A DNA stretch of 64,000 nt from the NCBI RefSeq assembly GCF_011290685.1, contig NZ_JAANYN010000004.1:372001-436000 (forward strand), given 5' to 3'. Within the stretch, counting starts at the first letter, position 1; each line of letters opens with the position of its first letter. Source of the DNA: Cyclobacterium plantarum (GTDB taxonomy: Bacteria > Bacteroidota > Bacteroidia > Cytophagales > Cyclobacteriaceae). This document shows positions 15,145 through 39,823 of the stretch, piece after piece. The notes below the pieces were generated by a model that did no database searches, was not told where the DNA came from, and worked only from the letters and a program-made list of their open reading frames with translations. The translations under genes and the position numbers were made by a program.

Positions 15145-17118
15145 ATGGCAGCAAATTACAGAACACCAGGTGTCTACATTGAGGAGATTTCAAAATTCCC
15201 CCCGTCCGTAGCACAGGTAGAAACCGCAATTCCGGCCTTTATTGGCTACACGGAAAAAGCAAGGGAGAAGGAGGCAGATACCACCGAAACCCTTTTGAAC
15301 CAGCCTAAACGTATCGTTTCCCTTTTGGAATATGAAACGTTCTTTGGAGGACCTGACCCTGAAATTGGAATAAAAGTGCAGATTTCAGAGACGGAAGGAG
15401 ATAAATCGGTATTGGTGGAAGGGCCGGACCCCGAGGACAAGTCGCCCTTTCTGATGTATTATTCCATGCAGGCCTATTTTGCCAATGGAGGCGGGCCCTG
15501 TTTTATCATTTCGGTCGGTATTTACGAAGAAGCGGATCCCGCTTCCCCGGTTACCATGGCGGCACTTAACCTGGGCTTGCAGGAATTGGAAAAAGAGGAT
15601 GAACCGACTTTGATCTTGTTTCCGGATGCCATATCCCTGCCGGAACCAAGTCAGTATTATTCTGTCTATAACAATGCCCTGGCACTCTGCCGGAAAATGA
15701 GGGACCGGTTTACCATCATCGACACCTATACCAATATCATGGAAACGGAGATTTCTTTGGATACAGGAGTTAGGGAATTGATTACCGGGGATCTGGAAGA
15801 GAAAAAATATGGGGCCGTTTATTACCCTTATGTGGAAACCATTCTCAATTACAGTTATGATCCGGAACAAACGGAGATTTCCCATATGATTACCGATGCT
15901 TCACCTGTTTCGGATATCATGGAGGAAATAGATGAAATTTTAGTGGAGGCCGAAGGTATCATGACCGATTTGCCGGGTGAAATTACTGCTTTTACCGATG
16001 CCAATACAGCCATTCAGGCCGGATCGGATGGAGATGCGGTTACCAATAAGGCCACCGTTGGTGATCCCCTTCAGGACATCATTGATGCCTTGAATGAATT
16101 TTCAAGTCTGATGGCCGAAGTAGTAGATGATACCAATAATGTGGCTGCACTGGCCCAGCCAACAGATGAAGCCCTGGCAACAGCAGCCACAGAGGCAGCC
16201 AATGCACTGAATGATGAATTGGAAGAGGGTGCTGACCTGCCTGCATTTATTGCAGGGCTTCAGGGCCATTTGGATATTCTAAACCAGGATGTGGATGGAA
16301 CGGCTGTAAAACAGGCCTCGGGTGATGCGAATACCAGCATTACTTCGACCGATGTAAATGCCCTGCTACAAGGGATCCTTGATTTGATCGATCCTCCTAT
16401 TTTGGATGCCCTGCTGGATATTGAAGAGCTGGATATGGAATCCGAAGGGGCTTTACATGACCTGGCCCTCAGTGAAGTGGAGGATATAGACAGCAGCACC
16501 TATAATAAAATAAAAAATGAAATCAATCGGCTCAGGGTAATATTGCCTCCTTCCCCGCTTATCGCCGGAGTTTATGCCCGGGTGGATGCCAACAATGGGG
16601 TTTGGAAAGCACCCGCCAATGTTTCATTGAAATATGTGGTCAAGCCAACGGTAAAAATCACCAACGAAATGCAGGACAGGTTGAATGTGGACACTACTGC
16701 CGGGAAGTCCATCAATGCCATCCGATCCTTTACGGGTAAAGGCACCTTGGTTTGGGGAGCGAGAACATTAGCCGGTAACGACAATGAATGGCGTTATGTG
16801 CCGGTCAGGAGATTTTTCAATATGGTGGAAGAATCCGTAAAAAAAGCTACGGAACAATTTGTATTTGAAGCCAATGATGCCAACACCTGGGTGAAGGTCA
16901 GGGCCATGATAGAGAATTTTCTGGTACAACAATGGAGGGCCGGAGCATTGCCCGGGGCCAAGCCGGAACATGCCTTTTACGTAAGAGTGGGCCTGGGGCA
17001 GACCATGACCGCCATGGATATTCTGGAAGGCCGGATGAATGTGGAGATTGGCATGGCCGTCGTGAGGCCGGCAGAATTTATCATTCTGAAGTTCTCTCAT
17101 AAAATGCAGGAATCCTGA
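15145..17118 (+). CDS. eCIS contractile sheath protein with acidic insertion
   Basis: 657 residues. The start (YRTPGVYIEEISKFPPSVAQVETAIPAFIGYT) is the conserved sheath N-terminus, here residues about 5-36. The C-terminal core has PLIAGVYARVDANNGVWKAPAN near 470-490 and the handshake domain ending in AEFIILKFSHKM. Between about residues 248 and 450 lies an Asp/Glu/Ala-rich, helical segment not seen in compact sheaths. Only one sheath gene is present, unlike the three in Afp and PVC, so one protein must form the whole sheath. It contracts to drive the inner tube outward. Confidence 0.93.
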   Translation: MAANYRTPGVYIEEISKFPPSVAQVETAIPAFIGYTEKAREKEADTTETLLNQPKRIVSLLEYETFFGGPDPEIGIKVQISETEGDKSVLVEGPDPEDKSPFLMYYSMQAYFANGGGPCFIISVGIYEEADPASPVTMAALNLGLQELEKEDEPTLILFPDAISLPEPSQYYSVYNNALALCRKMRDRFTIIDTYTNIMETEISLDTGVRELITGDLEEKKYGAVYYPYVETILNYSYDPEQTEISHMITDASPVSDIMEEIDEILVEAEGIMTDLPGEITAFTDANTAIQAGSDGDAVTNKATVGDPLQDIIDALNEFSSLMAEVVDDTNNVAALAQPTDEALATAATEAANALNDELEEGADLPAFIAGLQGHLDILNQDVDGTAVKQASGDANTSITSTDVNALLQGILDLIDPPILDALLDIEELDMESEGALHDLALSEVEDIDSSTYNKIKNEINRLRVILPPSPLIAGVYARVDANNGVWKAPANVSLKYVVKPTVKITNEMQDRLNVDTTAGKSINAIRSFTGKGTLVWGARTLAGNDNEWRYVPVRRFFNMVEESVKKATEQFVFEANDANTWVKVRAMIENFLVQQWRAGALPGAKPEHAFYVRVGLGQTMTAMDILEGRMNVEIGMAVVRPAEFIILKFSHKMQES

Positions 17119-29933: not shown

Positions 29934-30149
29934 CATGGGCTTCTTTCCTAGTTCCACAGACTTTAATCTCTAATCCAGTAACTCAACGACTCAACAGTGA
30001 TGTAAACAACACAGAAAGTGCGCGATTTCCAGACATTTTGACTTCCAGACTGATTCCTATTCCATACTTATTGCCAGTAAAATAACGCTTAGTCTTACCG
30101 ACTTTGCTGAAATAAAGATAAAGAATAATTGGCTACGAATCAAAATATT

Positions 30150-31658
30150 ATGAGTAAAAATAAAACTCATAGCATACAAAAAGTTCAGGTGGATATTTTC
30201 ACTTCTTCCATGGATACAGGTAAGTTGATGGAAAGGGACATGAGGTCATTTATCCGGGAGAGGATCTTCCCCTTGATCGAGCAATATCTGGATGAACTGG
30301 AAAGTAAACTGGATAATCGTTCTCTTCAAATACCGCTTTTGTCTCTGGAAATTGGTTTTGCCAAAAATGATTTCCCGACCATAGCCGACCTGGAAGTTCA
30401 AATTAATGCTCAAATGTATGAAGTAATGGAAAAAGCACCGGCTATTTCTTACCAAAAGGATTCTTTTCGGCTGTCCAAAAAAGCAAACGGGCAATTGAGG
30501 AATAATTTACCAGTAGAAAATTTCTCAGGGGAAAATGAAACAGAAAAGGTCCTGCTTTTGGAAAATGAAAACAAGGATTTTCAGGCTTGGATATATTTTT
30601 TGGAAAAAGGTGAGCTGCCCTGGTGGTATCCTGAAGTTCAGGCAAGAATCAATTTTCAGTTCAAAACTTTGAAGCCCTTTTTGGAAAATGACTTAAATAG
30701 AAATGCTTTATGGCAAAAAATAGCTTCTAATCGGGTGTTTTTTGATCGGCTGCTGTCACAATATTCGGGTGAAGAGATAAAGCAGTTGTTATGGTTTATT
30801 TTAAACGATAAAATTCCAATGAGTCGGTTAGATTTTGAGCGTATCAACAAGAAAATATCCAGCAATGAGCAGGAAGTTTTTTTTCAAATCCTTATCGGGA
30901 TAAGCCATTACCAGGAAGGTAAAGCTTCTTATGAAGTACCCTTCAGTAAGGCACTGACAGCAAATGGTATCCCTATAAAGTTTTTTGCTTCAATTAACGC
31001 AGTGGTTCAAGATACCCTAAGAAAATCTGAATTACCCATTTGGGAAAGTTTTTTTGATGAATTTAAAAATATTATCGAAAGCCAAAAGGGTCATCAAGGC
31101 GGTGATGGTTCAGAAGCACAGCATGTAATGATTGAATCTTCGGACAGGAGTCAAAAGAATGATGGAGAAAGCCATTACCTTGAACATGCGGGGTTGGTCT
31201 TAATACATCCATTTCTGAAGGCATTTTTTAGTGATTGTGGGTTTTTGGATCAGGGTGGTAAACTTATTGAACCTGAGCTTGCCGTCCATAGCCTTTATTA
31301 CCTGGCCAGCAGACAGGTTGCTCCATTTGATTTTGAATTGGTTTTTGAAAAATACCTCTGTGGATTGGACATTCATCAACCCATACCCAGGGATATAAAA
31401 TTAAGTAGGGGCATCCGGGAAAAAGCGGCTATGTTATTGGAATCTTTGTTGGAAAATTGGAGTAAACTGAAAAATACAGGTGCAGAGACAGTTCGCAATG
31501 AATTTTTGACCCGCAGTGGGAAGCTGGTTTTAGAAGACCATCAGGACCGTTTATTTATTGAGCGGAAAGCCCAGGATGTTTTGTTGGATGGATTACCCTG
31601 GAACCTGTCCATTATTAAATTACCCTGGAGGAAAAAATTGTTATTGGTGGAATGGTAA
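30150..31658 (+). CDS. eCIS tape measure protein (CIS_TMP family)
   Basis: 502 residues from ATG at 30150; a TTG at 30129 is less likely. The N-terminus (HSIQKVQVDIFTSSMDTGKL ... IRERIFPLIEQYLDELESKL) and the late block LEHAGLVLIHPFLKAFFSDCG match Bacteroidota proteins named contractile injection system tape measure proteins. The protein is helical and should set the tube length. Position after the baseplate genes and before the cargo matches Afp14. It is preceded by a 258-base gap with a hairpin, and the cargo gene follows after 12 bases. Confidence 0.82.
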   Translation: MSKNKTHSIQKVQVDIFTSSMDTGKLMERDMRSFIRERIFPLIEQYLDELESKLDNRSLQIPLLSLEIGFAKNDFPTIADLEVQINAQMYEVMEKAPAISYQKDSFRLSKKANGQLRNNLPVENFSGENETEKVLLLENENKDFQAWIYFLEKGELPWWYPEVQARINFQFKTLKPFLENDLNRNALWQKIASNRVFFDRLLSQYSGEEIKQLLWFILNDKIPMSRLDFERINKKISSNEQEVFFQILIGISHYQEGKASYEVPFSKALTANGIPIKFFASINAVVQDTLRKSELPIWESFFDEFKNIIESQKGHQGGDGSEAQHVMIESSDRSQKNDGESHYLEHAGLVLIHPFLKAFFSDCGFLDQGGKLIEPELAVHSLYYLASRQVAPFDFELVFEKYLCGLDIHQPIPRDIKLSRGIREKAAMLLESLLENWSKLKNTGAETVRNEFLTRSGKLVLEDHQDRLFIERKAQDVLLDGLPWNLSIIKLPWRKKLLLVEW

Positions 31659-31670
31659 ACAAAACAAGAA

Positions 31671-33110
31671 ATGAAAAGGCAGTCAGTCAGAAGGTCTACG
31701 GTAGGTATAATTAATCCTGTTTTCCAAAATAAAAAAGGAAACAGTTTCTTTAGGGCTAATGCAGAGCGCACAATGCCTGCTACTGATAAGGAGGGAATGT
31801 TTATTCAGAAGCAGTCTGCTGATAATGAAATGGAGGACTCCATGCAAATGGCTCCTGAGGATGAAAATGAAGTGCAATTGATGTCAGAGTCCGGGGAAGA
31901 AGAGCAGGTTCAAACAAAAGGGGAAGAAGAAGAGGTCCAAGCCAAAGAGCAAAAGGAACAGGCAATGGCCAAAGGAGAGGAGGATGAAGTTCAGACGAAA
32001 GGGGAAGAGGAAGAGGTCCTGGCCAAAGAGGAGGAGGAACAGATTCAGATGAAGGAAGAAGAGGAGCAGATTCAAACCAAAACTGCAGGGGCAGGAGGCA
32101 GGCAGGAACAAGCGGAATTGATGGAGCCGCTTTTACACCGAAGAAAAGGTGCCGGCAACCCTTTGGAGGGTAAGAGCAGAAAGCTGATGGAACAGGGTTT
32201 TGGAGCGGATTTTAGCCAGATTAGGATTCATACAGACGCTGAGTCTCACCGTATGAATCAATCCATCCACGCTCAGGCCTTTACCTATGGCAACGATATA
32301 TTTTTCAAAAAAGACAAATACAGGCCGGAGAGTCGGGAAGGGAGACATTTGCTTGCCCACGAGCTCACCCATACCATTCAGCAAAAGGGCAAAAAGCCAA
32401 AAACCATTCAGGGACATTGGAGCAAAAATGAAACCTACCATCCTTTGGATAAAAAAGGTATACGGGTTGCGGTAAAATTAGAATTTGCAGGAGCTGTTTG
32501 GAACAAAAGCAGCAACACTGCCCTCGACACTACAGGTCTTGCCGCTGCCGCGGAAAAACAGGTTTCCAATAGTTTCCGGGGAAAAATCAAAAAGCGTGTA
32601 TTGGGTATTGATATCCTTTATGACGTAACCACAACAGCTTCCATAAGGGTGATTTCCAAGTTGACTGATTTGAATTTTGGGTCCGAACACCTGCTGGTAG
32701 TATTGGACGATTCCCATCCCAAAGTTAAAGGCACATATGGTCGGGGACCCTTTTACGGCACCATTGTATACCTGAATGAAAAACACATTGGTCCGATGAT
32801 TTCCGGGGCTGACGAAAACACCATCCCTCATGAAGTAGGCCACACTGCCGGATTGAAACACCTGATGGAAAAAGGGGAAGAATCAGGTGTGTTGGGGAAA
32901 ATGATAAAGGACTTGCATCACCAGGCCAACAAAGACAATATCATGTGGAGAGGGGGCGGTCACCCCAGTTATTCCGGGGCTGATGCAGACGCCAACCTCA
33001 CCCAAACCAATACGCAACAATTGGAAGAGGTACATCAAAACATTCAAAATAAAAAGATCAATCAACTGGATCTGTTTAGTTTGGTGGATTTATATGCCTT
33101 AGAAAAGTAG
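31671..33110 (+). CDS. eCIS-core (DUF4157) putative cargo with metzincin-type protease domain
   Basis: 479 residues. About 1-150 is a low-complexity acidic segment with VQTKGEEEE-like repeats. The eCIS-core/DUF4157 domain (about 175-240) contains FGADFSQIRIHTD, AQAFTYGNDIFF and HLLAHELTHTIQQ, with zinc motif His230-Glu231-His234. The C-terminal domain holds a second, metzincin consensus HEVGHTAGLKH (His387, Glu388, His391, Gly394, His397) and a possible Met-turn in DNIMWRGG (Met425). DUF4157 proteins are typical eCIS-associated cargo. A zinc protease toxin delivered by the particle is the best reading; the target is unknown. There is no signal peptide. Confidence 0.82.
   Translation: MKRQSVRRSTVGIINPVFQNKKGNSFFRANAERTMPATDKEGMFIQKQSADNEMEDSMQMAPEDENEVQLMSESGEEEQVQTKGEEEEVQAKEQKEQAMAKGEEDEVQTKGEEEEVLAKEEEEQIQMKEEEEQIQTKTAGAGGRQEQAELMEPLLHRRKGAGNPLEGKSRKLMEQGFGADFSQIRIHTDAESHRMNQSIHAQAFTYGNDIFFKKDKYRPESREGRHLLAHELTHTIQQKGKKPKTIQGHWSKNETYHPLDKKGIRVAVKLEFAGAVWNKSSNTALDTTGLAAAAEKQVSNSFRGKIKKRVLGIDILYDVTTTASIRVISKLTDLNFGSEHLLVVLDDSHPKVKGTYGRGPFYGTIVYLNEKHIGPMISGADENTIPHEVGHTAGLKHLMEKGEESGVLGKMIKDLHHQANKDNIMWRGGGHPSYSGADADANLTQTNTQQLEEVHQNIQNKKINQLDLFSLVDLYALEK
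31908..32081 (+). repeat. Degenerate tandem repeat coding VQTK-GEEEE units
   Basis: About 58 codons with five to six imperfect units of 8-12 codons, each carrying (V/I)Q(T/A/M)K followed by a Glu run. The units lie in frame inside the N-terminal segment of the metzincin cargo. Such repeats can change length by slippage. Confidence 0.7.
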
Positions 33111-33127
33111 ATATCCATAGTCGACTC

Positions 33128-36100
33128 ATGAAAGCTTTTACAAGAAAATCCGGCAATAAAAATAAGAGCACCCCGGGAAATACCGGAACTGATTTTTTTC
33201 AGGCCAAACTTCAGGTGGGTCAGCCGGGTGATCAGTATGAGCAGGAAGCTGATGCCATGGCCGATCAGGTGATACAGATGAATGCGGCCGATCAAGGTGC
33301 ATGGGCCATAAAACAGGATGAAACAGAAGATAATGTTCAAAAATCTCCCATTCCTGAAAAAGAAATTCAGGCTCAACCACTGGCACAGTCGGTGACTCCG
33401 GTATTCCTTTCTGAGTCAGAGGATAAACCGCTCCAGGAAAAGGAAGAAGAGGAGGAAATGCTTCAAAAACAGGAGGGGGAAGAAGAGATTCAGGCAGCGC
33501 TCGAACCAAATGAAAGCAAGGAGGCAGAAGATGGAGGAGAAGGGTCTATTCAGATGAAGTCGGAGCAGGCTCCCGAAGTTTCTTCTGTTTTGGAAAGTCA
33601 ATTGAAACAACCATCAGGGGGATCAGGAATGGACGGTGCCACCAGGTCAGACATGGAAGGTAGTTTCGGGGCGGATTTCAGTCAGGTCAAAATACATACC
33701 GGTCCCCAGGCCGTGCAAATGAGCCGGGATCTGGGAGCACAGGCCTTTACCCATGGCAGTGATATTTACTTCAATGAAGGAAAATACAATCCATCTGCTG
33801 TGTCGGGTAAACATTTACTGGCCCATGAGCTGACCCATACACTGCAACAGGGAAGTAGTACTGCCATACAGGGAAGAATGGTGCAAAAAGAGGGAGATGA
33901 GGAAGAAGGGATTTCACCTCCAGAGGGAATAACTCCGATTGAGGATGCTCAAAATTACTTTAGTTTTCAAGATAGAGAAGGAGTTGTTTCTACCTTTCAA
34001 GATGGAACTACAAAAAATTTTAAAGTTGGCAAAATAAAATTGAGTGAATTTAAAGGTAGAAATGAGAGTTTATTCAATCCTCCATTTGAGGTTCCAAGGG
34101 GTAGGAGTACTAATCAGGTTGAAAATTGGAAGAATGAACTCAGGACAGGAATTTCCCAGGAAATCAATAATAAGATTGCTTCAGCCACGAATATTGGTGG
34201 TTTTAATCAAGCGTCATCTGAAGAAAGCAGACATTATTTTTTTAAAGGAAAAACCAATCCTGAATACATTGTTTTTGGTACCCAGGAACAGCTTTTGGAG
34301 CTTGGTTTAGTTCCTACCTGGGACAGAGATTTAGCTCCTGCAACCTTTCAGGTGGATCATATTGTAGAACATCAATTGGGAGGAGAGGACAATAAGACAA
34401 ATTATGAGCTTTTGGAAGCATCGGCAAATGGTAGTTCAGGATCCAGCATTGCCTGGGAAATGAACAAAAAAATGTTGGCCGTTTATAATGTTTTGGATTC
34501 AGCGTTTTATCAGGATTCAAATAGGAGTTTTACGCCAAATCTACCTTCCAGACCACCAAGACAAAATCAATACGTAAACTTGTTCCTTGACCAAGGTTAT
34601 ACTATTTCCTTTGAAAGCAGAGATTTTACACTTCCTAATAATTCAGGCAACCCAAACCAATATTGGGAGTTTTCTGAAGTTCAAAGTAAAGATCATTTAA
34701 ATAAGCTTGAGCCAATGTCTGCAGAAGAAATTGAGGCTTTGGGAAATGAATCTGATCCATCGTTATTTATGGCTCCAACCGGAGGTAGCAGACTTGACAT
34801 TCCTCCAGAAGGCCAATATCCAAAGATCAATTGGCTGAACAGGTTAGATTTGAAAAGTCCACCTGACTTTGTAAACAAAACTTTGCAAGTTGATGCATAT
34901 AAATCTTCCGATATCGGCAAAAAGGAGGTTACTGCATCCTATAATGACATGACTTGGTTCCTGGACAAAGTTGAGGGAACATATATATTCTATGTCAATA
35001 AGGATAGAACCCTTCAAAATGCAGTATCAGGCACAGGTGGTGTGTTTCAAAGCTTGCGACTTCCGGGATTGAGTCCAATCCAAATAGACCAGCTGGAACT
35101 TACTGAGAATGGGTTTTATGGTATAGGGAAGGTTCTTCCGACCGTGCCTTTGATTGCTGATGCAGATATTGATATAGTAATTGATGGTGACGGGGTTAGG
35201 CTAAGAAAATTGTTTTCTGCTGAAGAGTTTTCAATGCCAGCACCTTTCCGAATATCAGAGACTACATTAGAGATTTTTTTTGGAACCCAAGGCTTGGGCA
35301 TTACAGGTCAAACTAACTTTGGAATCGATCAGGTTGGTGAAGGCCATATCAGTGCTACAGCCTCTACCTCCGGTGGCTTTGAATTGGAAGGCGCTTTTAA
35401 TTTTGACTCGGAGCTTTTCGATCCGGCAGAAATCAATGTGGAATACAAGGAAAATACCTGGACCATCGGTGGGGAAATAGGTATACCGGAGGGCAAAGTC
35501 AGGGGGGTGAAAAGTGCTACCATTACTGCTACCTACAGTGAAAATAATTTTGCGGCCACCGGCGAGGCCGAATTGGATATACCCGGCATAGAGCGGGGAA
35601 ACATGGAGATTCAATACGGGGAAGCAGGTTTTTCCATCGGTGGAAATTTTGATCTCAGCAGTGATATTCCCGGAATTACCGGTGGTAATGTAGAAGCCCG
35701 GGTCTCCAAAGCGGAAGGCGCAGAAAATTACGATGTATTCGTTTCGGGAACCGCACAGCCCGATATTCCAGGCATAAGCACTTCCTTGTCGGTTACCTAC
35801 GAAAACGGAGCCCTGACCATTGAAGGGTCTGCTGCTTACAGCCGGGGCATGCTCAGCGGGCGAATAGAAGTAGGTGCCACCAACCGGGCTATAGGGGAGG
35901 ATGGTCAACCTATGGGTGAGCCTGACGAAAACATGCGGGTCTATGGGGGAGGAGAGTTAACCCTTCAGCTCACCCCCTGGCTGGCAGCCACTGCCGGTGT
36001 CCGGCTGTTGCCCAATGGAGAAATTGAAGTAAATGCCAGGTTGGCGGCTGACAGTTATGAAGTCTTCCGAAGAAGGGAAATGAACAGAAACCTGTTTAGG

Positions 36101-36757
36101 GTACCTACCATTGAAATCCCCTTATTTGCCATTCCGTTAGGCCCAAGAAGCATTGGCCTGGTAGCTCAAATCGGGGGAGGGCTAGACTTTACTGCTGGAT
36201 TTGGTCCCGGGGAACTGCGCAACCTTTCCGCAGAAATCACCTATAATCCGGAAAGAGAAGAAGAAACCACGGTCGCCGGTCATGGGGAATTTGCCATTCC
36301 TGCAGATGCGGGGCTTACTTTGCGGGGAGATCTGGGTCTGGGGGTCAGTGTGGCCATTGCCAGTCTTTCCGGAGGAATCGAACTTACGGGCACCCTGGGA
36401 CTGGAAGGAGAGGCACTGGCAGAAGTAGATGTCAACTGGAGTCCTCAAACCGGTTTGGCCCTGGATGCGAGCGGAAGGATTACCGTAAACCCAAAATTCA
36501 TATTTGAAATCAACGCATTTGCCAGAGCCAGTTTGGGAGTTGGCTTTCTTTCCATATCAGAAACCTGGCGGCACAACCTGGCTGCCTACGAGTGGGGGCC
36601 GGGGATACAATTTGGGATTGTATTTCCTGTGCACTACAGGGAAGGTGAACCATTTGACATGTCATTTGATGATATTGAAGTGATTTATCCGGACCTGGAC
36701 GTAATCGATATGGCAAAAGGCCTGGCATCCGACATAAAAAATGATTTATTTGCTTAA
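33128..36757 (+). CDS. eCIS-core (DUF4157) putative cargo with HNH-like motif and long beta-repeat tail
   Basis: 1209 residues. An acidic N-terminus (EKEEEEEMLQKQEGEEE) leads into DUF4157 (about 177-240; FGADFSQVKIHTG, HLLAHELTHTLQQ with His233-Glu-x-x-His237). At 409-438 comes VDHIVEHQLGG ... TNYELL ... SANGSSG. This HNH/His-Me-type pattern (Asp410-His411, Asn425, Asn434) suggests a nuclease. From about 670 to 1170 there are repeated beta strands with (D/G)IPGI-xxGN units, like a translocation or barrel-like tail. Delivery as a toxin is inferred from DUF4157 and gene order. The HNH call is by motif only. Confidence 0.72.
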   Translation: MKAFTRKSGNKNKSTPGNTGTDFFQAKLQVGQPGDQYEQEADAMADQVIQMNAADQGAWAIKQDETEDNVQKSPIPEKEIQAQPLAQSVTPVFLSESEDKPLQEKEEEEEMLQKQEGEEEIQAALEPNESKEAEDGGEGSIQMKSEQAPEVSSVLESQLKQPSGGSGMDGATRSDMEGSFGADFSQVKIHTGPQAVQMSRDLGAQAFTHGSDIYFNEGKYNPSAVSGKHLLAHELTHTLQQGSSTAIQGRMVQKEGDEEEGISPPEGITPIEDAQNYFSFQDREGVVSTFQDGTTKNFKVGKIKLSEFKGRNESLFNPPFEVPRGRSTNQVENWKNELRTGISQEINNKIASATNIGGFNQASSEESRHYFFKGKTNPEYIVFGTQEQLLELGLVPTWDRDLAPATFQVDHIVEHQLGGEDNKTNYELLEASANGSSGSSIAWEMNKKMLAVYNVLDSAFYQDSNRSFTPNLPSRPPRQNQYVNLFLDQGYTISFESRDFTLPNNSGNPNQYWEFSEVQSKDHLNKLEPMSAEEIEALGNESDPSLFMAPTGGSRLDIPPEGQYPKINWLNRLDLKSPPDFVNKTLQVDAYKSSDIGKKEVTASYNDMTWFLDKVEGTYIFYVNKDRTLQNAVSGTGGVFQSLRLPGLSPIQIDQLELTENGFYGIGKVLPTVPLIADADIDIVIDGDGVRLRKLFSAEEFSMPAPFRISETTLEIFFGTQGLGITGQTNFGIDQVGEGHISATASTSGGFELEGAFNFDSELFDPAEINVEYKENTWTIGGEIGIPEGKVRGVKSATITATYSENNFAATGEAELDIPGIERGNMEIQYGEAGFSIGGNFDLSSDIPGITGGNVEARVSKAEGAENYDVFVSGTAQPDIPGISTSLSVTYENGALTIEGSAAYSRGMLSGRIEVGATNRAIGEDGQPMGEPDENMRVYGGGELTLQLTPWLAATAGVRLLPNGEIEVNARLAADSYEVFRRREMNRNLFRVPTIEIPLFAIPLGPRSIGLVAQIGGGLDFTAGFGPGELRNLSAEITYNPEREEETTVAGHGEFAIPADAGLTLRGDLGLGVSVAIASLSGGIELTGTLGLEGEALAEVDVNWSPQTGLALDASGRITVNPKFIFEINAFARASLGVGFLSISETWRHNLAAYEWGPGIQFGIVFPVHYREGEPFDMSFDDIEVIYPDLDVIDMAKGLASDIKNDLFA

Positions 36758-36766
36758 ATTGGGGAT

Positions 36767-37642
36767 ATGGAAAAAGAAAAAGCCATAGCACTCAACAACG
36801 AGGGAGCCAAACACTTTTTAAACCGGGCATTCGACAGTGCCATATCTTGTTATACAAAAGCCCTGGAACTTGATCCCACCAATAGCTCTATTTTAAATAA
36901 CCTGGGACTTTACCATCACCAACAGAAAGCGTACAAAAAGGCCTTGGAATTTTTCGAAAAAGCCATTGAGATTGATTCAAAGCCGACTTACCTGGTCAAT
37001 AGTGGAAACGCCCTGGCCATGATGGGAGTATATCCTCAGGCCCGTGAAAAGTATCTTGAGGCACTGAAGCAAGACCCCGATCACCATAGTGCCAGGGTTA
37101 GTTTGGCACAACTTGCGGCGCATACCGGGGACCATGAGTCAGCCATAGAAACCTGGGAAAAAATATTGGCCAGCAATCATGATACGGCTTATGTAATCCA
37201 ATTGGCCAAAGCCTACATCAACGTCAAAAAGTGGGAAAAAGCATTGCAGCGGCTGCATAGTATTCCGGCCAAAGAGGGAAATGCACTGGCCTGGTTTATG
37301 ATCGGTCAGTGTGAATTTCAGCTAAAAAACCATGGCTTGGCAGAAAAAGCTTTTAAAATGGCTTTGGCTGATGATCCGGACCATTCAGAAATCAGGCAGC
37401 ACCTGGCGGTCAATTACCTGGCTATGGGAGAATGGGAAAAAGGCATTAAGCACCTATCGACGATACTTCGTCTTGAGCCCCAAAATTATCAGGTAATGAC
37501 AGAGTTGGCGGTGGTCTATTTGGGTAGGGGCGATCAAAAAATGGCCTGGGATTGGCTGGATAGGGCCTTGCAGCTGAAACCTGATTTTAGCAAAGCCCTT
37601 CACTATAAAAAAATATTGGACCAATCTCAGTCGCAACAATGA
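36767..37642 (+). CDS. TPR-repeat protein in the eCIS cluster
   Basis: 291 residues made almost entirely of about eight tetratricopeptide repeats (AFDSAISCYTKALELDPTN; AYKKALEFFEKAIEID; MGEWEKGIKHLSTILRLEPQ; MAWDWLDRALQLKPDF). No signal peptide. TPR proteins bind peptides or partner proteins. Lying nine bases after a DUF4157 gene and just before the AAA+ ATPase, it could be a cargo-loading or assembly chaperone; this is inference. TPR proteins are not part of the canonical Afp/PVC set. Confidence 0.8.
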   Translation: MEKEKAIALNNEGAKHFLNRAFDSAISCYTKALELDPTNSSILNNLGLYHHQQKAYKKALEFFEKAIEIDSKPTYLVNSGNALAMMGVYPQAREKYLEALKQDPDHHSARVSLAQLAAHTGDHESAIETWEKILASNHDTAYVIQLAKAYINVKKWEKALQRLHSIPAKEGNALAWFMIGQCEFQLKNHGLAEKAFKMALADDPDHSEIRQHLAVNYLAMGEWEKGIKHLSTILRLEPQNYQVMTELAVVYLGRGDQKMAWDWLDRALQLKPDFSKALHYKKILDQSQSQQ

Positions 37643-37686
37643 TTGTTTTTTTCTTTCCTTGTTTATCTGGTAAATACTTACAGATT

Positions 37687-38991
37687 ATGAAACAATTGAT
37701 GGATTTTTTACGCCTGGTGATCAGGAGCCGGCTCGACCATGAATTGGGAAAAACGGAAACCCTTGAAAAACCCCAAATGGAGCTTCATTTTGATCCGGAG
37801 GAGTTTTTGGGCAAGACGATCAAAGATCTGGACATCAAAAACCGGGACCTTTTGTTGTTGGCACTGGCCATTGCACCTCATATGGATCCGGGATTATTGG
37901 GAAAAACTATCCAATCCTATTATCCGGAAGGAGCTGATTTTCCGGAATTTGGAGGTTGTAAAAGCAAGCATCACAGAGGCATCATCCCTACCGGAGAAAC
38001 CTTGCTGTACCTACTGGCAGGAACAGATCCGGTCACCAGGAAAAAACACCTGCCAGTTTTTCAGGAATCCATCCTGTTCAGGAAAAACCACCTTTATTTG
38101 GGAGAAACCTTACCAGAAGAACCCTTTTATGCCGGAACGATCTGTCTGGAGCAGGAGTTTGCCGATAAGCTCCTTTTGGAAGTTGTCCGTCCGCCAAAAC
38201 CCAGTACGGGTTTCCCTGCTGAATTAATCGAAACAGCACTGGAATGGGAAGACCTGGTTTTGTCAGACAAGACTTTATCCCAAATCAAGGCGCTGGAAAA
38301 CTGGTTGACTTACAATGAGGAATTGATGGAAAGCTGGAGGTTGAGGAAAAAGGTCAAACCAGGTTACAGGGTGATGTTTTTTGGTCCCCCTGGCACAGGC
38401 AAGACGCTGACAGCCGGCTTACTGGGAAAATATACGGGAAAGGAAGTATATCGCATAGATCTTTCCCTTATGGTTTCCAAATACATTGGGGAAACAGAAA
38501 AAAACCTTTCCCGCTTGTTTGAGAAAGCTTCGGGCAAAAATTGGATCCTGTTTTTTGATGAAGCGGATGCACTTTTTGGAAAGCGCACCAATGTGCGGGA
38601 TGCCCATGATAAATATGCCAATCAGGAGGTTGCCTACCTGCTGCAACGCATAGAGTCTCATCCTGGGTTGGTGATTTTGGCATCAAACTTTAAAAGCAAT
38701 CTGGATACGGCATTTACCAGAAGGTTTCAGTCTATCATTGATTTTGAAGCACCGGGAAGTAGAGAAAGGTTATTGTTATGGGAGAAAAACCTGCCCGAAA
38801 GCATGGCTTTGAAAAATACCCTCGATATAAAAGATCTGGCCAAAAAGTATCCTTTAACGGGAGCCAATATCGTCAATATTGTACAGCAGGTGGGGTTGAG
38901 AACACTGGCCGCCGGAGATGACTCCATCAGAGAGGATGTTTTATTGCAATGCATCCGAAATGAAATACAGAAAGAAGGTAAAATTCATTAA
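37687..38991 (+). CDS. AAA+ ATPase of eCIS (Afp15/Pvc15-like)
   Basis: 434 residues from ATG at 37687; a longer frame from ATG at 37639 starts inside the TPR gene's last codons and adds a hydrophobic stretch untypical of the family. The N-terminal 200 residues are the Pvc15-specific domain. The AAA module has Walker A FFGPPGTGKT (Lys239), Walker B ILFFDEADALFG (Asp291-Glu292) and TRRFQSIIDF with an arginine finger. It is required for particle assembly in characterised eCIS, perhaps for cargo loading. It is the last core gene. Confidence 0.93.
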   Translation: MKQLMDFLRLVIRSRLDHELGKTETLEKPQMELHFDPEEFLGKTIKDLDIKNRDLLLLALAIAPHMDPGLLGKTIQSYYPEGADFPEFGGCKSKHHRGIIPTGETLLYLLAGTDPVTRKKHLPVFQESILFRKNHLYLGETLPEEPFYAGTICLEQEFADKLLLEVVRPPKPSTGFPAELIETALEWEDLVLSDKTLSQIKALENWLTYNEELMESWRLRKKVKPGYRVMFFGPPGTGKTLTAGLLGKYTGKEVYRIDLSLMVSKYIGETEKNLSRLFEKASGKNWILFFDEADALFGKRTNVRDAHDKYANQEVAYLLQRIESHPGLVILASNFKSNLDTAFTRRFQSIIDFEAPGSRERLLLWEKNLPESMALKNTLDIKDLAKKYPLTGANIVNIVQQVGLRTLAAGDDSIREDVLLQCIRNEIQKEGKIH

Positions 38992-39040: not shown

Positions 39041-39823
39041 ATGAAAGAGAAAATCAAGCTTGCCCAGCAACTCCTGGCCGAAAAAGGCCACTATCAGGGA
39101 GGTATTGATGGAATTTTTGGTCCCAATACCCTTGGTGCCATTCATAAGGTTCCGGGAATTGATCACGGACTTCCCAATTCCCGTAAAATTACCATGCTGA
39201 TCCAAATGGGAGCCAAAGAAAAAGGGTTTGATGCAGGTGCCATTGACGGGATGTGGGGGCCTCAGACCCAATTTGGCTTTGAAGAATTGGCTTTTCTGAT
39301 GGAGCATGGGCGGAAAAGAGGTTCCTGGAGACCTGAGGAAATGCCTGCTGCCAATCGATGGCCCAGACAAAACTCCCCTGAATTCCATGAATTTTATGGG
39401 CAGCGGGGGCAAAATCTGGTAAGCATTGATGTTCCCTACGAACTCAAAATTGCCTGGGATCTGCGGTATAGGGCCAGAAAAATCACCTGCCACAGAAAAG
39501 TTGCTGAAAGTTTATTGACCGTTCTGGAAAATGTGCTTCAGGTTTATGGAGAAAACGACATACAGGCCCTACACTTAAATCATTTTGGCGGCTGCTATAA
39601 CAACAGGCTTATGCGGGGAGGGACCCAATGGTCAACCCATTCCTGGGGAATGGCAGTGGACTTTGATCCGGATAGAAACCGCTTGACATGGGGAAGGGAC
39701 AAGGCAGCATTTGCGCATCCCAGATATGATGAATGGTGGCGTTGCTGGGAGGAAGAAGGTTGGGTCAGCCTGGGCCGAAGAAGAAACTTCGACTGGATGC
39801 ACATTCAGGCGGCCGAGGTATAG
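39041..39823 (+). CDS. Peptidoglycan-binding M15-type peptidase (putative eCIS release lysin)
   Basis: 260 residues. Two PG_binding_1-like modules come first (KGHYQGGIDGIFGPNTLGAI, about 15-34; KGFDAGAIDGMWGPQTQFGF, about 64-83). The C-terminal M15/VanY-type zinc peptidase site is STHSWGMAVDFD (His200, Asp207) and FDWMHIQ (His254). The expected activity is cleavage of cell-wall peptide cross-links. There is no signal peptide, as in phage endolysins and lysins encoded next to eCIS genes. Its place at the 3' end of the cluster suggests a role in cell lysis and particle release. Confidence 0.85.
   Translation: MKEKIKLAQQLLAEKGHYQGGIDGIFGPNTLGAIHKVPGIDHGLPNSRKITMLIQMGAKEKGFDAGAIDGMWGPQTQFGFEELAFLMEHGRKRGSWRPEEMPAANRWPRQNSPEFHEFYGQRGQNLVSIDVPYELKIAWDLRYRARKITCHRKVAESLLTVLENVLQVYGENDIQALHLNHFGGCYNNRLMRGGTQWSTHSWGMAVDFDPDRNRLTWGRDKAAFAHPRYDEWWRCWEEEGWVSLGRRRNFDWMHIQAAEV

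Follow-up and report, generated by a model that had tools for sequence, protein, structure and literature searches.

The cargo gene and its predicted metzincin domain

We analyzed a 64,000-nucleotide stretch of the Cyclobacterium plantarum genome (contig NZ_JAANYN010000004.1, positions 372,001 to 436,000; hereafter the window), which carries the locus of an extracellular contractile injection system (eCIS). Genes for the terminator, sheath, tube and baseplate are recognized between 13677 and 24544. Further downstream lie the tape measure gene, a gene for a 479-residue protein with two zinc motifs, a second and larger cargo gene, a gene for a tetratricopeptide repeat protein and, at the 3' end, an AAA ATPase gene (Table 1). 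The 479-residue protein, the subject of this report, carries an eCIS_core domain and shares its locus with the particle genes just named, and it passes as a DUF4157 eCIS cargo.

Table 1. Features of the cargo protein, of its locus in the window, and of the alternative payload in other Cyclobacterium genomes.
Feature	Position	Strand	Evidence
eCIS cargo gene, 479 residues, AlgoCIS Cgo1 orthologue by sequence	31671..33110	+	exact open reading frame
Acidic Glu/Gln-rich low-complexity N-terminal region, residues 1-163	31671..32159	+	composition and sequence
DUF4157 / eCIS_core domain, residues 164-241	32160..32393	+	PF13699, E 9.1e-34
HELTH motif of DUF4157, residues 230-234	32358..32372	+	
C-terminal metzincin payload domain (predicted), residues 243-479	32397..33107	+	
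HEVGHTAGLKH, zinc-binding consensus, residues 387-397	32829..32861	+	H, E, G, H, G, H invariant, 19 homologues
DNIM, Met-turn, residues 422-425	32934..32945	+	N and M invariant, 19 sequences
eCIS tape measure protein, directly upstream of the cargo	30129..31658	+	PF19268, E 1.3e-102
Second DUF4157 cargo, 1209 residues, AlgoCIS Cgo2 counterpart (1228-residue frame in G350)	33128..36757	+	PF13699, E 1.7e-30
eCIS sheath, nearest solved structure AlgoCIS 7adz	15145..17118	+	
AAA ATPase, 3' end of the eCIS locus	37639..38991	+	PF00004, E 2.4e-25
Alternative payload in the Cgo1 slot, four Cyclobacterium genomes	L061 10427-11689, L062 9962-11869, L063 10001-11848, L064 207-2048		

The N-terminal region of the cargo is presumably disordered and would serve in loading, by analogy with the AlgoCIS cargo described in the sections of PMC8894135 drawn on here. 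It is followed by the DUF4157 domain and by a C-terminal region whose motif follows the pattern HExxHxxGxxH. By sequence and alignment, the methionine of the putative Met-turn (N423-I-M425) is located 28 residues past the third histidine, H397.

A motif of this kind could arise by chance in a domain that is not a metzincin, and residues 243-479 indeed reach the cut-off of no Pfam or NCBIfam model. The Peptidase_M43 model (PF05572) gives 12.4 bits where its cut-off is 23, and a search of PDB sequences with the single protein as query gave no match. None of the Tox-MPTase1-5 models, which we take Pfam to hold, is listed for the domain at E up to 10, where filters drop weak matches. Against a chance origin, HExxHxxGxxH occurs in only one of the 311 stop-to-stop frames of at least 60 residues in the window and in 52 of 200,000 shuffles of the 479-residue protein. 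The pattern together with N-x-M 15-60 residues downstream was found in 3 of 200,000 shuffles, and the idea of a fortuitous Met-turn was dropped on this count. We regard conservation as stronger evidence against chance than the shuffles: an alignment of 19 homologues, with identity down to 16%, has 10 invariant columns, which include the H, E, G, H, G, H, N and M of both motifs. The core is also under strong purifying selection, with dN/dS of 0.013 to 0.082 in the five comparisons, out of seven, that gave a value; many distant pairs are saturated and gave none.

The predicted fold, which likewise speaks against a chance motif, matches metzincins, and its neighbors include ADAM and venom proteases. 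The AlphaFold2 model was built on 9 sequences and is of moderate quality in residues 151-237 (block means 60-83), which counts against the reading developed below. One neighbor, at 17% identity, is mirolysin of Tannerella forsythia (PDB 6r7w/7od0), presumably a metzincin of the pappalysin/M43 type; it is a secreted protease, not an injected payload. The motif, the Met-turn and the predicted fold together support the assignment of residues 243-479 to the metzincins, and a chance motif is a very remote explanation. H387, H391 and H397 would be the zinc ligands, E388 the general base and M425 the residue of the Met-turn. The initial annotation, made from the letters alone, had attributed HELTH to the DUF4157 domain, read the second motif as a metzincin consensus with a possible Met-turn, and proposed a structure prediction compared with metzincins. 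HELTH lies inside the PF13699 match, the second motif and M425 withstand shuffling, the consensus residues of the motif and M425 are invariant in the homologues, and the fold comparison returned metzincins.

Orthology to Cgo1 and payload exchange in Cyclobacterium

A close relative of the cargo is found in a genome, G350, whose sheath agrees at 692 of 692 residues with the PDB sequence in 7adz, 7aeb, 7aef and 7aek. 7AEB, 7AEF and 7AEK are structures of AlgoCIS from Algoriphagus machipongonensis (PMC8894135). Because of this identity we take G350 to be A. machipongonensis. Among open reading frames of at least 250 residues in 19 kb, G350 has two adjacent ones with HELTH: one of 498 residues, which also contains HEVGH, and one of 1228 residues with HELTH only, whose N-terminal 484 residues score as eCIS_core. 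These two frames fit Cgo1, which has two HExxH motifs, and Cgo2. Like the window protein, Cgo1 (ALPR1_12695) occupies the slot between the tape measure and a second DUF4157 cargo and carries both motifs. The C-terminal halves are 65% identical over 234 residues, whereas the N-terminal regions have diverged (33% over 123 aligned residues). As judged from these sequences, the window protein is the Cgo1 orthologue. In AlgoCIS, both Cgo1 and Cgo2 are located in the lumen of the tube, and contracted particles lack Cgo1 (PMC8894135).

The slot downstream of the tape measure gene, a gene present in all 12 Cyclobacterium genomes, is not always filled in the same way. Six genomes have an intact metzincin cargo, one (G003, C. 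roseum) has a cargo with a deleted core, and in four (G002, G007, G009 and G010) this carrier is joined to another C-terminal half; in the remaining genome (G011) the gene runs off the contig. The copies in congeners include those of C. lianum (93% identity in the domain), C. salsum, C. jeungdonense, C. xiamenense and C. roseum. Aligned along the length of the window carrier, those of G002, G009 and G010 show 40-42% identity. In G007, with an apparent frameshift in the N-terminus, the downstream piece of the carrier is 61% identical over 71 residues. The C-terminal halves of these four proteins do not match that of the window protein (best E 0.44). They contain a conserved domain with AHERxHASK, which includes a HERxH motif, and the two that were scanned, from G010 and G002, contain PG_binding_1 (E 2e-14 and 6.3e-15). 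The AlphaFold2 model of the alternative payload is too poor (pLDDT 55.7, pTM 0.44) for a fold search, and we therefore refrain from calling this payload a zincin. In a tape-measure tree of 15 rows, the alternative payload type forms one side of one branch (support 97/99) and requires a single change; the tree carries a warning of long branches meeting the outgroup, which makes the swap's direction tentative. A constant N-terminus combined with an exchangeable C-terminal domain is a trait of polymorphic toxins, and the proposal of the initial annotation that the C-terminal domain is the payload agrees with this modular arrangement on a DUF4157 carrier and with the unrelated C-half in four of the 12 genomes.

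Rhs-type relatives and the likely target

The metzincin domain also occurs outside eCIS, at the C-terminus of Rhs-like proteins. It is in frame with them in five loci (L023, L028, L029, L030 and L043), split from Rhs-core-like sequence in L022, and broken across frames in L041, with Rhs-core-like sequence downstream. L023 is the one locus where the Pfam model RHS_repeat passes its cut-off, and L028 gives a sub-threshold match; the remaining loci are assigned by what we take to be the Rhs core motif. No eCIS gene was seen in the short stretches covered at these loci. Directly behind six of the seven Rhs-linked copies (all except L023) lies a small open reading frame of 131-174 residues, which starts at -8 to +11 relative to the stop, with an N-terminal hydrophobic stretch in its product. 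Five of the six pass a strict lipobox rule and one, behind L043, fails. Of the 137 long frames that served as control, taken from the window and the eCIS regions, none passes; this control set includes non-gene frames and is not drawn from other Rhs genes. In the relatives' own loci the rule selects five of 24 long frames, four of them behind metzincin copies (one of the four repeats L028). The frames behind L028 and L041 are related to each other (E 4e-9), and the rest of the six are not detectably related. We consider these lipoprotein-like frames candidate immunity genes. No small lipoprotein-like frame was found behind any of five standalone copies of the domain.

We suggest that the window protein is the cargo of an AlgoCIS-like eCIS with an exchangeable metzincin payload, which is probably fired into another cell and there most likely cleaves envelope proteins of competing bacteria. 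The acidic N-terminus and DUF4157 would form the constant loading half, and residues 243-479 the exchangeable half, a putative zinc endopeptidase of the metzincin clan. The particle of the window strain would deliver this cargo into a target cell, where the protease would act on proteins, most likely those of the envelope, and might be toxic. That the metzincin is a delivered payload has good support; our best guess is that the protease is directed at other bacteria and acts on their envelope. An envelope target in other bacteria is favored because lipoprotein-like genes adjoin the Rhs relatives and because the alternative payload contains a peptidoglycan-binding domain.

Several further observations weigh against this proposal. 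No immunity-like gene is found behind any of the 10 intact eCIS copies, which are followed by the second cargo gene; if the target is the envelope, this absence would mean that close kin are spared. The lipobox rule fired once, in L040, behind a frame lacking the metzincin motif. Five standalone copies in genus g386 (L037-L040 and L042; frames of 209-226 residues) lie beside conserved, housekeeping-looking chromosomal genes, indicating that not every copy of the domain acts as a toxin. By eye, we take these neighbors to include a nadD-like gene in three loci and a GldH-like lipoprotein gene in two. The in-frame deletion in G003 (L007 982-1878) removes the domain through most of the zinc motif, and with it the catalytic core, and keeps the carrier, the Met-turn region and the C-terminal tail; it is known from one assembly and may be an artefact. 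Finally, Cgo1 inhibits the growth of E. coli independently of the HExxH motifs in both DUF4157 and the C-terminal domain, and AlgoCIS had no effect on any of the bacteria or eukaryotes tested (PMC8894135). The published result contradicts the idea that this inhibition is caused by the metzincin, and we dropped that idea. The initial annotation considered a delivered metalloprotease toxin likely: delivery gains support from Cgo1, a tube-lumen cargo, while proteolysis as the toxic activity does not, given that the inhibition is independent of the motif (PMC8894135).

The absence of an immunity gene beside all 10 eCIS copies raises the question whether the target is bacterial. Many toxins of the Photorhabdus virulence cassette (PVC) type also lack an adjacent immunity gene, which was read as possible targeting of distant organisms in the passages of Zhang et al. 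2012 drawn on here (PMC3482391). The metzincin could be an effector delivered to eukaryotic cells, such as those of protists, algae or invertebrates, in the manner of other injected host-directed proteases, and the ADAM and venom proteases among its fold neighbors are consistent with this. We consider this the main rival and an unlikely one, as the Rhs-linked copies adjoin candidate immunity genes, the alternative payload binds, by prediction, peptidoglycan, and the tested eukaryotes were unaffected by AlgoCIS (PMC8894135).

The motif-independent inhibition by Cgo1 (PMC8894135) and the in-frame core deletion in G003, whose carrier is retained, would also be explained if the metzincin is genuine without being the toxic principle, some other part of the cargo being inhibitory and the protease auxiliary or vestigial. 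We rate this a little lower than a eukaryotic target, since the core is under purifying selection and its active site is invariant in the homologues; overexpression in E. coli may, moreover, be uninformative about the natural target. The same motif-independence is compatible with a protease that acts within the producer, processing or releasing cargo or tube proteins. The second cargo adjoins every one of the 10 intact eCIS copies, and the DUF4157 domain has been proposed to bring about autoproteolytic release (Zhang et al. 2012, PMC3482391). A processing role is nevertheless improbable, because a third of the Cyclobacterium genomes have another payload in the slot and one has lost the core, and because the domain also forms the end of Rhs-type proteins, where the short stretches covered showed no eCIS gene.

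Returning to the envelope-directed payload, a broader and more tentative version of it would cover the whole family. This unnamed metzincin family may be an exchangeable antibacterial payload that, in Bacteroidota, moves between Rhs-type toxins and the cargos of contractile injection systems and attacks rivals by cleaving proteins of their envelope; where it is linked to Rhs, a lipoprotein immunity protein encoded directly behind it would neutralize it. We find this conceivable and stop short of favoring it.

Distribution and comparison with known systems

Searches within the phylum gave matches to the domain in seven of 59 relatives, 13 of 390 genomes of the family, nine of 390 of the order (of which at least two and probably five are other proteases), eight of 395 of the class of G503, and two of 395 of the phylum, one being the window's own; these samples overlap and the E limits differ between searches. 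Across the phylum its occurrence is rare and patchy. A contig scan with two narrow patterns found six copies, all in Cyclobacterium, which does not imply restriction to the genus, as copies are known elsewhere. No relatives were found on viral contigs with the single domain or alignment A3 as query, or on plasmids with one Rhs-linked copy as query. Five matches from the order search, L031-L035 (E 3.7e-5 to 8.5e-5), were rejected as family members: L031 and L035 score as Peptidase_M43, L033 and L034 resemble L031 by eye, and L032 appears by eye to be another protease-like frame. Profile comparison of alignment A4 against L031 and L035 gave an alignment limited to 29 columns at the motif, with a probability of 94.6.

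Other features of the eCIS locus were noted. The second cargo has a weak HNH-like stretch at residues 406-429 (PF01844, E 0.23), and L018 and L019 show a similar DHxxExQL stretch in their second cargos. Near the 3' end of the locus, at 39041-39823, the window encodes a 260-residue protein with PG_binding_1 and Peptidase_M15_4, possibly a lysis or release enzyme; a similar-looking frame of 260 residues is present in four other Cyclobacterium loci.

A DUF4157 eCIS cargo with a metallopeptidase C-terminus is a known kind of protein. The window cargo is not the first putative protease cargo to be sighted, as Cgo1 precedes it: the structures of AlgoCIS particles have been solved, the authors could not find the function of its cargos, and the C-terminal domain of Cgo1 was said to be one that "might encode a metalloprotease" (PMC8894135). 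The sections of that paper drawn on here name the HExxH motifs of Cgo1, with no mention of a metzincin class, Rhs relatives or a payload swap. A search of open-licence PMC papers gave nothing that joins a metzincin with a contractile injection system. As far as this literature goes, the metzincin class, the link to Rhs, the payload swap and the natural core deletion are new. Placing the Cgo1-type C-terminus among the metzincins gives the AlgoCIS cargo a concrete hypothesis, a zinc endopeptidase. The Rhs relatives and the adjacent candidate lipoprotein immunity genes point to the bacterial envelope as the place to look for its target. The natural swap and core deletion make the idea of a constant DUF4157 carrier with a C-half payload directly testable within one genus.

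The closest general precedent is the PVC-metallopeptidase (DUF4157) toxins, which, like the window cargo, combine a constant DUF4157 half with exchangeable C-terminal toxin domains, metallopeptidases among them (Zhang et al. 2012, PMC3482391). The Tox-MPTases of that study are linked to RHS, as the metzincin domain is here. In the passages on Tox-MPTase drawn on here, these proteases are described by HExxH only and likened to Wss1 (PMC3482391), whereas the domain in the window has a third histidine and a Met-turn.
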